Shown here: one piece after another, positions 1,004-51,116 of the stretch
Layout of the letters: the number at the start of each line of letters is the position of its first letter
Numbering within the stretch: the stretch's first letter is position 1
Assembly (NCBI RefSeq): GCF_000419525.1
Contig: NZ_ATTE01000001.1
Coordinates: forward strand, 558,001 to 622,000
Length of the DNA stretch: 64,000 nt
Reading direction: 5' to 3'
Source: Leucothrix mucor DSM 2157
GTDB taxonomy: Bacteria; Pseudomonadota; Gammaproteobacteria; Thiotrichales; Thiotrichaceae
Program-made: the position numbers and the translations under genes
The notes under the pieces: generated by a model
The model's database searches: none
What the model was told of the DNA's origin: nothing
What the model saw: the letters and a program-made list of their open reading frames with translations, nothing else

Positions 1004-1585
1004 TTACTCAGCTGCAGCTGGCTCTTTCGCATCACTACCCATCTTTGAGTGATCCATTTTCATATCATCAGCCATCTTAGATCCGTCCATTTTGGAGTGA
1101 TCCATTTTGTCATGGTCCATTGATGAGTGTTCCATCATTTTGGTAATATCGACTATGTTATATTCCACTTCAAGCTCTCCGGCCTTCTCGAAAATAACGG
1201 TGCCCTTACGCTGTTCTTCTGGCTTTAACTGTTCCATTAGGCCAATAAACATTAGGTGATAGCCACCTGGCTTCAGTTCAACCGTTTCGCCAGCCGGAAT
1301 CTCCAAGCCGCCATCAACCTGACTCATCTTCATTACGCCGTCGTCCATTGACATCTGGTGAACTTCTACCAGTTGAGAGAATGCGACTTTGCCACCGATT
1401 AACTTATCGGCCTCTTTACCATTATTGGTGATAGTCATGAACCCACCTGCGACAGGTGCCATTGGTGCTGTGGCGCGGGCATAAGGGTCCTTAATAACCA
1501 GATCGCCGACGGTATAATCCGCTGAAAATGCGTTACTACTCAATAAACAAGCGCTCAGAAGTGCAGTGGTAATTAAGCCTTTCAT
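1004..1585 (-). CDS. PCuAC-family periplasmic copper chaperone
   Basis: A 193-residue exported protein. It has an N-terminal signal peptide (MKGLITTALLSACLLSSNAFSA) followed by a PCuAC/DUF461 domain. The Cu(I)-binding set is visible as VHQMSMDDGVMKMSQV followed by GGYHLMFIGL, the family's H-M...H-M pattern. PCuAC proteins pass copper to cytochrome oxidase CuA sites. The C-terminal 40 residues form an unusual Met/His/Asp-rich tail with repeated MDHSKM-like units that probably binds extra copper. The ATG at 1585 was chosen because GGAG lies 10 nt upstream; the ATG at 1594 directly abuts that GGAG. Longer starts would run into the TauE gene. It is the last gene of a leftward group with TauE/SafE and an FAD reductase. 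Confidence 0.88.
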   Translation of the reverse strand: MKGLITTALLSACLLSSNAFSADYTVGDLVIKDPYARATAPMAPVAGGFMTITNNGKEADKLIGGKVAFSQLVEVHQMSMDDGVMKMSQVDGGLEIPAGETVELKPGGYHLMFIGLMEQLKPEEQRKGTVIFEKAGELEVEYNIVDITKMMEHSSMDHDKMDHSKMDGSKMADDMKMDHSKMGSDAKEPAAAE

Positions 1586-1674
1586 TAAAATCATTCTCCG
1601 TATCGTTTTAAAAACAGTTAAGTACAGCGAGTTAGGGCTGTAGAGCAATAGATATGACCGCAGCCAGACTAAAT

Positions 1675-2508
1675 CTATCCCCAGATACTCCAGAGCATGC
1701 GAATTGAGGTCAGGCCTAAGAATAAAGCGAACACCTTTTTTAGGCGTACCGGATTCATATGATGGGCCAATTTCGCACCATAAGGAGCTGTCAGTACGGT
1801 AATTGGGAAAATCAAGCAAGCCGCAATAATGCTGACATAACCAAGGCTAAATGGTGGGCGGTTTTCAACACCTAAGCCAGCCCAGATAAATCCAATAGTT
1901 GCCGGTAGGGCAATTACCAAGCCAAATGAAGAGGCCGTACCGACGGCTTTGCGCATATCATAATTAAACAATGCCATGGTCGGTACCGTTAAAGTACCAC
2001 CGCCAATTCCCATTAATGCTGACAGGGTGCCGATCATAGCCCCAATGGCTCGTTGCACGCTCAGTGAATCGGGTAGTTTTGGAGCAATATTAATGGTATG
2101 AGGGCGGAACATATTGACACTAACTAGCAAGGCAACCACCCCAAATACCAGCCGTAACACATCACCATCGACGTATTTCGAGGCAATGCCACCGGTTAGC
2201 GCACCCATGGCAATTGCAGGCCCCCAAGACTTAACTAACGTCCAATCTACATTTTGGCGCTTATGGTGTGCGCGCATTGATGAGAGGGAGGTCGGGATGA
2301 TAATGGCTAAGGAGGTCCCGACGGCAATGTGCATCGAGACATCAGATGGGAAGTTAAGCAAGCCAAGAATCCAGAATAAAACGGGCACTATCACAATGCC
2401 GCCGCCAACTCCCAGTAGCCCTGCCATGATTCCAGCAATAATGCCGGTAGCGAACAGGCTGAATAGTAAAATTGGCCAAATGTCGGCGATGATCTCAAAT
2501 CCTGTCAT
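1675..2508 (-). CDS. TauE/SafE (TSUP) family membrane exporter
   Basis: This 277-residue protein has about eight hydrophobic helices arranged as two similar halves. The family hallmarks are the glycine motifs GLLGVGGGIVIVPVLFW in the first half and GIGGGTLTVPTMALF in the second. Members move sulfite, sulfoacetate or related anions across the inner membrane; the substrate here cannot be read from sequence. It begins 22 nt after the FAD reductase stop, and the two are probably cotranscribed with the downstream PCuAC gene. A weak GGAA lies 7 nt before the ATG. Confidence 0.88.
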   Translation of the reverse strand: MTGFEIIADIWPILLFSLFATGIIAGIMAGLLGVGGGIVIVPVLFWILGLLNFPSDVSMHIAVGTSLAIIIPTSLSSMRAHHKRQNVDWTLVKSWGPAIAMGALTGGIASKYVDGDVLRLVFGVVALLVSVNMFRPHTINIAPKLPDSLSVQRAIGAMIGTLSALMGIGGGTLTVPTMALFNYDMRKAVGTASSFGLVIALPATIGFIWAGLGVENRPPFSLGYVSIIAACLIFPITVLTAPYGAKLAHHMNPVRLKKVFALFLGLTSIRMLWSIWG

Positions 2509-2529
2509 TAGAGGTTCCGAGGTAGAGGG

Positions 2530-3744
2530 TTAGGTGAAGTCTTTCAGGTTAATAGCCGGATCTATCGCTGCCGATTTGGGTATCGAGTTGCCTGCGGCAA
2601 GAATTTTGCGAGCCATGGTATAAGCAATAGGGTCATTCATGGCATCAACGGCTAGCAATTGCTCATCTTTGTAGTACCAAATAGACTGCGAACCTTCACG
2701 CTTTCCGGGTCGGGTAACGGTGTCGGTATAGCCAAGGTTGAGGCCGGCAATTTGTAGCTTTATAGTATACTGATCTGACCAGAACCAAGGGGTTGGCTGA
2801 TAAGATACTGGTTGACCGAGTATATTGAGTGCCGCATTTTCAGCTTGGTCGACTGCATTTTGAACTGACTCTAAACGAATCCGCTGGTCGTGATAGTCAA
2901 AACTGGCACAATCCCCGGCAGCATAAATATCCGGATCGCTTGTGCGGCTTTGCAAGTCGACTGCAATACCATTCTCAATGACTAAGCCAGCGTCTTTTGC
3001 TAACTGGCTATTTGGTGACACGCCGATACCGGTAATCACAAAGTCCACAGCCAATTCGCTGCCATCATTAAAAATGGCCTTACTCACACGACCATCTGAC
3101 TCTTGTAGTGATGCAAGGCCGGTACTTTCCATAATGGTAACGCCGTGCTGTTGGTGTAGTGCACGGAAATAATCAGACGTCGCTGGGGAAGCAACGCGTT
3201 GCAAAATGCGCTCAGCGAGTTCCACAACGGTGACCTCTAAGCCTAAACCCGCTGCCACAGCTGCGGCTTCCAGCCCGATATAGCCACCACCGACAATCAA
3301 TAGTTTACGGCCTGCCTTAAACTCAGAAGCCATTTGGTCAATATCATGCAGGCTTCGTAGTGTGTAAACGCCGGGTAAGTGGCCTCCAATGACAGCAGGT
3401 AGACGAAAGGGTGTAGAGCCGGTCGTAATCATCAGTTTGCTATAATTCAGTACAGTCCCATCATCAAGCGTGACTGCTTTGGCTTCACGATCAATTTGGG
3501 AAACGCGAACACCTGTTTTCAGCGTTATATGATTTTCCTCGTACCAACTTTGTGGCCTCAGGGCTAAGCGCTCAACGGCCATATCGCCCAACAGGTATTT
3601 TTTGGAAAGCGGAGGTCGTTGATAGGGGAGGTGTTGCTCATCTCCAATCAGAGTAATCGCGCCCTGATAATCTTCCGAACGCAGTTTTGCGATGAACGAG
3701 GCGGCGGCTTGTCCTGCGCCGATAACGATAATGGGGTCTGACAT
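2530..3744 (-). CDS. FAD-dependent ferredoxin/rubredoxin reductase-like oxidoreductase
   Basis: A 404-residue pyridine nucleotide-disulfide oxidoreductase of the putidaredoxin/rhodocoxin reductase type. The N-terminal FAD fold shows VIGAGQAAASF, the second dinucleotide fold shows LLIVGGGYIGLEAAA, and the FAD-binding IYAAGDCA precedes a C-terminal reductase domain. It would pass electrons from NAD(P)H to a small iron-sulfur protein, but no ferredoxin gene is adjacent. The ATG at 3744 was preferred over one at 3792 because AGAGGAAG precedes it at good spacing and the FAD fold starts straight away. It is first gene of the leftward operon with TauE/SafE and probably PCuAC. Confidence 0.88.
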   Translation of the reverse strand: MSDPIIVIGAGQAAASFIAKLRSEDYQGAITLIGDEQHLPYQRPPLSKKYLLGDMAVERLALRPQSWYEENHITLKTGVRVSQIDREAKAVTLDDGTVLNYSKLMITTGSTPFRLPAVIGGHLPGVYTLRSLHDIDQMASEFKAGRKLLIVGGGYIGLEAAAVAAGLGLEVTVVELAERILQRVASPATSDYFRALHQQHGVTIMESTGLASLQESDGRVSKAIFNDGSELAVDFVITGIGVSPNSQLAKDAGLVIENGIAVDLQSRTSDPDIYAAGDCASFDYHDQRIRLESVQNAVDQAENAALNILGQPVSYQPTPWFWSDQYTIKLQIAGLNLGYTDTVTRPGKREGSQSIWYYKDEQLLAVDAMNDPIAYTMARKILAAGNSIPKSAAIDPAINLKDFT

Positions 3745-49786: not shown

Positions 49787-50815
49787 TTAAGGCTGTGACT
49801 CATTCAGTAGATTCTCTACCTGAGAGGTGTAGCGCATGGCCAGATCAAACAATAAAGTACCATCTGCTGCCGTGCCGGATGGTCCTGGCGCTGAGTCATA
49901 AACAATTGCCTGTGCGCCTGTTTGCTGAATCTTAAAAATGAGATTTTGCAGACGGATTTTGTAGTCTTCCTGAGTCACGTCATTAAAGTAATCATTGACG
50001 CTGCTATTAACCCAAACATAATTCGGTAGCTCAGGGCTAACATCTGTTTCAAAGCGTCCTAGAAGATCGCATAAGGTGTTACCACCAACGCCGCTTTGAA
50101 CAATTTTGGCGTCTGGAAAACGCAGTGCTAAGCGGTCTCTAATCACACCATCAGCAAACCAGCTATCACCTAACAACACATGGGTGCCATCATTTGTAAT
50201 GCTATTGGCAACACTGCGATACCCATAATCGGCAATGGCTTTGTAACCAAGCTCATTCGGGTGGCTTGGATCAAAGTAAAAGTTCCAGAGGTTTTGGCCT
50301 GCCAATACCGGGCTCACTAGAGCCGTCGCTCCGGTAAGTGTAATGGTAGTGGCATCCAGTGATGCTATTTGAGCAACATTGTAGTCTAGGTTTTCACTCA
50401 GGTAGGTAATCAGTTGATTAGGTACCAGCGCTGTTGTGGAATCAACTTTTAAGGTTGTAGCACCTGCAGGGGCATCGGCTGTGACGGTTAAGTCAAGAAA
50501 CCCACCTGTTTCACCTGCCAAGGTCAGGTCGCCATTGGTATCAGCTTGGCTGATCACATAAGCCTGATTTCTCAGAAGTCCATAATGCCTTTTCACCCAA
50601 ATAAATGGCTCAATGGGTTCGGCAATGGTCTCACAGCTAACCGTCGTAGCGGAGCCATCCGTATCGCCGCCATCCTCGGTTGTTTTTGGGTCATCCTTTG
50701 TATCTTCATATGAGTTAGCAGCGGTATCGTGGTAGTCGACTTTGGAGTCGCCAGCGCAGCCATGCAGGAAAAGCAGGCTACACAGTAATATCGGGGTAAG
50801 CAGTATCCTTTTCAT
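49787..50815 (-). CDS. Lipoprotein with SGNH-hydrolase blocks in permuted order
   Basis: A 342-residue lipoprotein (lipobox FLHGC, Cys20) with an acidic linker (about 25-60). All four SGNH blocks can be found, but block V comes first: FDPSHPNELGY (D182, H185). Then follow block I LLGDSWFAD (Ser218), block II SGVGGNT and block III VNSSVNDYF (N274). In normal SGNH/GDSL hydrolases block V is C-terminal, so the domain looks circularly permuted. SGNH enzymes hydrolyse acyl esters on lipids or glycans. ATG 50815 has AAAGGA upstream and gives a normal lipoprotein signal. Confidence 0.65.
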   Translation of the reverse strand: MKRILLTPILLCSLLFLHGCAGDSKVDYHDTAANSYEDTKDDPKTTEDGGDTDGSATTVSCETIAEPIEPFIWVKRHYGLLRNQAYVISQADTNGDLTLAGETGGFLDLTVTADAPAGATTLKVDSTTALVPNQLITYLSENLDYNVAQIASLDATTITLTGATALVSPVLAGQNLWNFYFDPSHPNELGYKAIADYGYRSVANSITNDGTHVLLGDSWFADGVIRDRLALRFPDAKIVQSGVGGNTLCDLLGRFETDVSPELPNYVWVNSSVNDYFNDVTQEDYKIRLQNLIFKIQQTGAQAIVYDSAPGPSGTAADGTLLFDLAMRYTSQVENLLNESQP

Positions 50816-51116
50816 TCGAGGTCCTTTCAAAATTTTCATTGTTATTGGATGTATGTGTTTTCAAAGGCAGTTTAGGTGGCTTGAGTCTTGGTTGCGTGTG
50901 CCAGAGGGAGGAGACGAAGCCTTTTATTGATGAGTGGGCTTGTATTCGATTTATGAAGCTAAACACAAGAATGGACTTCGGCTAACTAATAGCCATTTCG
51001 CTGCGTTTTATGTATTATTTGCCCGAAAAAAAACGATTCAAACCGTTAGCGGTTTCCGGTGATAAAAAGGCGTGAATAATTAGGAGCCTTGTGTTGCGCA
51101 AGGGGAGAGGGAGTGT
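50816..51116. other. 301-bp divergent intergenic region
   Basis: Promoter region between the SGNH-like lipoprotein and the C39-like peptidase. It holds a 6-bp hairpin AAACCG-TTAG-CGGTTT (51040-51055), preceded on the plus strand by an eight-A run. On the minus strand this is hairpin, 6 nt, then T8, a weak terminator shape. Nothing else was recognised. Confidence 0.45.

Follow-up and report, generated by a model that had tools for sequence, protein, structure and literature searches.

A gene for a predicted lipoprotein lies on the minus strand of the window, the whole 64,000-nucleotide stretch of Leucothrix mucor DSM 2157 DNA that was analysed. The open reading frame has its stop at 49787 and an ATG at 50815 and encodes 342 amino acids; an alternative in-frame ATG at 50839 would give 350. 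By eye, the gene is flanked on one side by genes for an aldehyde dehydrogenase and a cytochrome c, and on the other by genes for a C39-like peptidase and a histidine kinase. Loci L005, L012 and L013 also have relatives of the first two, which makes synteny of this locus within the genus at least partial. The features of the gene are as follows, with residues numbered in the 342-residue protein.

49787..50815, minus strand: open reading frame of the predicted permuted SGNH lipoprotein; relatives with 37-52% identity in its own genome and genus.
50756..50815, minus strand: putative signal peptide with a lipobox-like end, ..LFLHGC (Cys20), predicting a lipoprotein; by eye.
50636..50755, minus strand: acidic low-complexity linker, residues 21-60; from the sequence.
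50300..50518, minus strand: predicted beta domain, about residues 100-172; from the model strands.
50210..50293, minus strand: beta5, block V (D182-P-S-H185-P-N) and the next helix, residues 175-202, on the N-terminal side; from the sequence, the model and profiles.
50159..50191, minus strand: beta1 and block I GDSW (S218, predicted nucleophile), residues 209-219; from the sequence, Pfam and the model.
50075..50092, minus strand: block II GVGGNT, residues 242-247; from the sequence and relatives.
49991..50002, minus strand: block III SVND (N274), residues 272-275; from the sequence and relatives.
49796..49912, minus strand: beta4 and the C-terminal helix, residues 302-340; from the model and structural alignment.

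A preliminary description of this DNA had placed D182, H185, S218 and N274 at these positions, and both the sequence and the alignment agree. All catalytic blocks are present in the order V-I-II-III that it had read (DPSHPN, GDSW, GVGGNT, SVND), and model strands at about 108-160 fit its beta-rich segment at 85-165. Lipobox-like ends were also seen by eye in relatives (LSGC in L002 and L014, LAAC in L005, LTAC in L006, LTGC in L008 and L009, LHGC in L007). Cys61, before the beta domain, and Cys249, in the block II helix (NTLC), co-occur in the window-type clade including L005-L009; by eye, their equivalents are absent from the other paralogues. From this pattern a Cys61-Cys249 disulfide is likely.

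The protein stops where canonical enzymes continue into beta5 and block V. Its histidines are at positions 18, 29, 77, 185 and 212, with none after S218. The preliminary description had allowed for a longer true reading frame with a C-terminal DxxH. The three frames downstream of the stop are interrupted and contain neither a block V nor a C-terminal DxxH, and with no histidine after S218 the catalytic histidine must be N-terminal to the serine.

Other permuted members, which the preliminary description had left to a search, were found among paralogues, genomes of the genus, a metagenome-assembled genome (MAG), a phage and viral contigs. A protein search found three copies in the genome itself, the window protein and two paralogues, and copies in all 6 other genomes of the genus. 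The 50 other relatives among the 57 genomes searched, which included its own, had no copy at E<=1e-5, and in the class sample 0 of 273 other genomes matched at E<=1e-8. The single-protein search of genome contigs returned one match, a Thiotrichaceae MAG contig (L004), and among 50,697 phage records only Vibrio phage 1.154.O matched at E<=1e-3. No relative was found on viral contigs with single-protein queries and none with the DNA pattern. An alignment-based scan gave 16 viral contigs, and a second scan, for which the query was the beta domain plus block V, found 21 loci. Seven of these are on contigs that the first scan had not given, and 3 of the seven have the same motifs in the same places. 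Viral contigs number 23 in all. Plasmids gave no match. In phylum samples of 398, 398 and 388 genomes, G489 was the sole other genome matched beyond blocks I-III. It carries the phage form, a 753-residue frame with DVTPHPN, a jelly roll and then GDSW. Three further genomes, in a 398-genome sample, matched over blocks I-III only (L051-L053). The family looks narrow: one genus in several copies and scattered phages and prophages.

On prophage or phage contigs the permuted SGNH domain occurs twice side by side at L025-L030, L033, L034 and L039. These paired copies consist of a tail-fibre-like protein followed by a twin that has a signal-peptide-like N-terminus and lacks the fibre part. Such a secreted copy might have the surface of the lysogen itself as its target. 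At L010, L017, L018, L019 and L023 the SGNH domain is surrounded by repeated 'DGNLSDW'-like modules in long proteins, and no Pfam match over the cut-off was listed for these modules in L010 and L018.

Block V precedes GDSW in L001-L028 and L030-L040, with both motifs degenerate in domain 1 of L007. At L029 the order V-I is found in the secreted protein, and the tail-fibre frame begins after block V and yielded no domain for the tabulation. Among the frames listed from the second viral scan, each of the 28 that fit the block V pattern has GDS further along. L118 has an extra GDST more than 120 residues upstream of block V and seven frames have GES likewise; these were taken for fibre parts. Counts from the domain script are a biased test of order, since the script searches for block V on the N-terminal side of GDSW. 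The loci found with profiles are less biased, as is the listing of the 28 frames, which took in G-D/N/E-S on both sides of block V and the pattern of which missed at least one known member (the L110 fibre). Counted from the first residue of the NFY-type motif, GDSW follows after 37-42 residues in the bacterial branch (23 domains) and after 184-198 residues in the phage branch (25 domains). By eye, block V is C-terminal in canonical SGNH proteins of the same genome (L041, L042, L044 and L047, the last below Pfam's cut-off) and in the nearest matches outside the family, L051-L053. The loci examined included neither a protein that combines the beta domain with the usual block order nor an intermediate that has block V twice.

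Profile comparisons were used for analysis of the moved segment. PF13472 matches the window protein with E 2.6e-10 and 41.5 bits (cut-off 32.9), aligning residues 205-315 with profile positions 5-115 of 178; block V is missing from the match. A sub-threshold PF00657 match places the upstream residues 169-196 on positions 189-206 of 208. Restoring the canonical order raised the PF13472 score from 43.2 to 46.8 bits and extended the match over positions 21-178, and a single shuffle of block V lowered it to 37.8. Gains were small in two relatives, with restored and native scores of 61.0 and 59.8 for L003 and 65.9 and 61.9 for L018; the profile end was reached in neither. PF25182 (NonGDSL) matches blocks I-III of some relatives below threshold (26.3 bits in L003, cut-off 80). 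In hhalign, 21 bacterial-branch domains in native order aligned with 32 canonical SGNH domains with a score of 105.6 over 120 columns. The restored order scored 127.0 over 155 columns and reached through block V, and none of 200 shuffles of the block V columns attained this score (maximum 113.5). The block V segment alone aligned with canonical columns 155-177 with a score of 28.6, again reached by none of 200 shuffles (maximum 16.4). The 24 phage-branch domains scored 78.7 restored and 74.5 native, a small gain. Of the 33 canonical loci, 32 gave a usable cut and L042 did not; L004 and L040, where the contig ends after block III and block I, respectively, and the degenerate L007 domain 1 were left out of hhalign and the tree. 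These results identify the N-terminal segment as the homologue of canonical block V.

Motif conservation was tabulated over 48 distinct domains, one of them degenerate, after 6 identical copies were dropped from 54. H185 is kept in 47 of the 48 and is lost only in L007 domain 1. The L007 frame (1492-3450, minus strand) encodes two tandem permuted SGNH domains. In domain 1 SHPN has become YTPN, GDSW has become GDGW, GGNT is lost and VND has become VSD; domain 2 is intact (DHPN, GDSW, GGDT, TND). The joint loss at all catalytic positions fits a single shared active site. The residue three before the histidine is D in 27 domains, N in 18 and S, E and H in one each. An acidic residue is found two to four positions before the histidine in 47 of 48 domains, its place shifting, and L004 has none. 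Of the 25 phage domains, 23 have D two positions before the histidine; of the 23 bacterial-branch domains, 13 have D or E four positions before it. Outside the motif, E102 (E42 in the model) is nearly invariant. The DxxH of the preliminary description holds as the homologue of canonical block V, and a strictly conserved aspartate does not. The asparagine in 18 domains and the lack of an acid in L004 make the third triad member uncertain, and judged from these sequences it may be variable or absent. CE2 esterases are described in the available text of PMC9487903 as having a variable or absent third triad member. A C-terminal S-H-x-Y found in some paralogues (TDLSHDY in L003) was considered as the true block V and rejected. 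Near this position the window protein has AMRY, close relatives have SQRY, FMRY, SYRY and ANRY, and phage members have an S-R-S-Y stretch; in the model it falls in the helix after beta4.

There are two readings in which nothing was permuted. One takes the gene for a truncated or frameshifted canonical SGNH gene with its true block V downstream, which would account for the PF13472 match ending at position 115. The match also ends at 113-137 in the seven relatives scanned, including ones with further domains fused after it, and with the three downstream frames lacking a block V and the architecture conserved, we give this reading almost no weight. The other takes the N-terminal SHPN for a chance look-alike, the base being H77 or H212 or no block V histidine being needed. 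Both histidines are as invariant as H185 in the 21 rows of alignment A2, and the acid of the block V motif varies. Against it, H77 is replaced by Ser or Thr in L006 and in domain 2 of both L008 and L009, H212 sits within the beta1 strand six residues before S218, and H185 is lost only in the degenerate copy. A chance motif was ruled out by the profile and shuffle tests, and this reading as a whole is very improbable.

An AlphaFold2 model of the window domain, made with 20 relatives, had a mean pLDDT of 85.9 and a pTM of 0.85. Its elements are beta5 (175-178), H185, a helix (188-202) and beta1 (209-216), followed by alternating helices and strands, beta4 (302-307) and a last helix (322-340). 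The model shows the canonical series with beta5, block V and its helix predicted at the front. Model residues 149-281 align with residues 1-133 of E. coli TesA (1j00) with Z 14.1, and residues 144-281 with residues 1-166 of the acetylxylan esterase Axe2 with Z 13.7-13.8. D191 and H194 of Axe2, named in the titles of its entries, lie past the aligned 1-166, so what stays unmatched in the canonical enzyme is the part that holds block V. In the phage-branch model (pLDDT 88.4, pTM 0.89) the series recurs, and blocks V and I are separated by a jelly roll at 124-275 that the window model lacks. For this jelly roll, the matches to CBM22 modules have Z 13.0-13.5, and that to xylanase 10B (2w5f) has Z 15.0. 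CE2 esterases, in which the SGNH block order is the usual one, take Foldseek ranks 1, 2 and 4 for the phage-branch model (2waa, 2wab, 2wao). These matches have a low TM (0.21-0.29) and a high rmsd (18-20 A), which rearranged domains would be expected to give. A0A2I7RBK1 and A0A2I7RES9, neither of which bears a name, were the best two viral matches of the fold search. AlgX, AlgJ and PatB1 are not among the fold matches listed, nor are DHHW proteins among the 50 listed in the structural alignment of the window model, which ranks Foldseek's own hits; such gaps are not evidence of absence. The circular permutation suggested in the preliminary description is supported by the conserved order, the profile match, the model series with its structural alignment and the joint loss in the degenerate copy.

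The profiles of the bacterial and phage branches align over 161 columns with a score of 356.5, so one permutation event explains both. The beta domain, noted in this respect in the window protein and at L024, may share ancestry with a domain in the tail-tube protein of Acinetobacter phage Mystique (PDB 9n71). Profile A3, headed by a phage member, matches 9n71 over the beta domain with E 2.7e-5, and 9n71 is rank 2 for the window model in Foldseek (E 1.3e-6, TM 0.25). With the bacterial-branch profile A4, 9n71 was not listed at E<=0.01. phrog_1082 matches residues 108-161 with E 3.5e-5. In a tree of 77 core domains the permuted (45 rows) and canonical (32 rows) domains split with support 100/100, and the phage branch is one group (99/99) within the bacterial rows. 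The outgroup branch is long (2.48), columns are few and the bootstrap is unsettled, so the tree sets no direction between bacteria and phages.

Two further readings accept the rearrangement and differ on its origin. The protein could belong, as a remote relative, to one of the permuted families already known (AlgX/AlgJ/WssI or DHHW/PatB1), in which case its permutation would not be independent. The same H-S-G-N block order is described for those families, and the surroundings of block V are alike (YxxTDTHWNxxG in AlgX, NFYFDPSHPNxxG here). PF16822 and DHHW were not listed in a Pfam scan with a limit of E 10, in which HMMER filters drop most matches above 0.1, and a PF16822 search of the genome found nothing. 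Against three AlgX-family proteins the native order scored 15.7 in hhalign (E 0.2), where canonical SGNH domains give 105.6-127.0; the best of four forms reached 18.8 (E 0.054) over blocks I-III only. The test has low power, canonical SGNH itself scoring 25.8 (E 0.0058) against the same three rows. L097 was left out of these rows as its DxH follows GDS; this locus has a PF16822 (ALGX) match and DNHW after GDSF, apparently the usual order. The GDSW block I, the Asn in block III and the [D/N]xxH of block V are unlike the AlgX features given in the accessible part of PMC9487903. AlgX membership was rejected as far as three AlgX sequences allow, and common descent with the known permuted families is improbable. 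The canonical GDSL blocks are kept and the match to canonical SGNH is far better than that to AlgX, which we read as an independent permutation.

A more elaborate origin is conceivable and rather doubtful. The ancestor would have been CE2-like, with a CBM22-like jelly roll followed by an SGNH domain that carried the beta domain before block V, and the whole two-domain enzyme would have been permuted. Tandem duplication and trimming, perhaps in a tailed phage, would have produced the order beta domain, V, jelly roll, I, II, III. That arrangement would survive in phage tail proteins. The bacterial lipoproteins, whose beta domain may be of phage-tail type, would be domesticated copies in which loss of the jelly roll brought V next to I. 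If true, phages would have made or carried a second, independent permutation of a catalytic fold. The tree speaks against this, nesting the phage rows among the bacterial ones, albeit with its root on a long branch; so does the outcome of the viral and phylum scans, which yielded no usual-order ancestor carrying the beta domain.

The best explanation, to which we assign a probability of about 0.85, is that the window protein is a predicted surface lipoprotein with a circularly permuted SGNH/GDSL domain that most likely deacetylates polysaccharide, that its permutation arose once, from a canonical GDSL_2 enzyme and probably independently of AlgX/AlgJ and PatB1, and that tail proteins of phages have it too. 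The chain would run from the beta domain through beta5, block V (H185, D182), a helix, beta1, block I (S218), block II and block III (N274) to beta4 and the last helix. In the folded protein block V would take its usual place beside S218 and H185 would activate the serine, with the block II Gly and the block III Asn forming the oxyanion hole. The enzyme would most likely remove acetyl or similar small acyl groups from a polysaccharide. The starting point of the permutation would have been a TesA/Axe2-like enzyme, rearranged once in the family, and the phage tail proteins, which have a CBM22-like jelly roll between V and I, would share the event. That H185 touches S218, that the protein is an active enzyme with such a substrate and that it sits at the surface are predictions of this explanation. 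Our best guess for function, by analogy, is a surface-anchored carbohydrate O-acetylesterase. The nearest solved relatives include acetylxylan esterases and TesA, and the phage members occur in tail-fibre-like proteins beside a CBM22-like module. Klebsiella prophage tail fibres with SGNH domains were tested with p-nitrophenyl acetate and are called functional esterases in the text available from PMC13123978, which points the same way.

All four canonical blocks are kept in what appears to be a naturally permuted GDSL enzyme, and permuted and usual-order enzymes can therefore be compared with little else changed. The family suggests that the SGNH fold has been permuted more than once and that the former chain ends can accommodate a carbohydrate-binding domain. 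It also suggests that family models ending before block V make such proteins look truncated. It connects lipoproteins of bacteria with tail proteins of phages, a connection that had not been suspected.

Permutation by itself has precedents in the superfamily. Circularly permuted SGNH proteins are already known in AlgX/AlgJ, PatB1/DHHW and WssI, as set out in the accessible portions of PMC9487903 and of the AlgJ, WssI and OatA papers; what stands of the earlier reading is that the permutation is present here. No description of a permuted GDSL_2-type family was found in the open-access literature searched. AlgX and AlgJ have a permuted SGNH-like fold like that of the window family, with the block order given in the available text as H-S-G-Y (H-S-G-D in WssI). 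They are described there with DxH, GTSYS, a block III Tyr and O-acetyl transfer, whereas the window protein has DPSH, GDSW and VND. DHHW proteins and Bacillus cereus PatB1 have a permuted SGNH core with a beta cap formed from the first strands, according to PMC9487903. Their motifs KDS, DXRY and TDHHW, as given in the accessible text, are absent from the window protein, which is set apart by motifs and by the Pfam scan. CE2 esterases carry the carbohydrate-binding domain N-terminally (PMC9487903, available text), whereas in the phage branch it lies between V and I and the bacterial branch lacks it; an N-terminal jelly roll followed by a usual-order SGNH domain is thus not the arrangement of this family. 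Fibres of phage G7C, of Klebsiella prophages and of Pectobacterium phage Possum (gp66) have SGNH esterase domains. The accessible portions of PMC13123978 and PMC9569702, from which these tail-fibre deacetylases are compared by description, do not mention permutation.

The closest comparison is with the canonical GDSL_2 enzymes, which are among the best PDB profile matches and align with the window model with Z 12.4-15.0 and rmsd 1.6-3.0 over 124-135 residues. The window protein has the PF13472 profile of the SGNH superfamily, the block I Ser, the block II Gly, the block III Asn and a homologous block V; it departs from the S-G-N-H order with a C-terminal block V. Axe2, TesA, AlAXEase and 4rsh share blocks I-III and the core strands and helices with the model, and block V, C-terminal in canonical GDSL_2 enzymes, is N-terminal in the window family.
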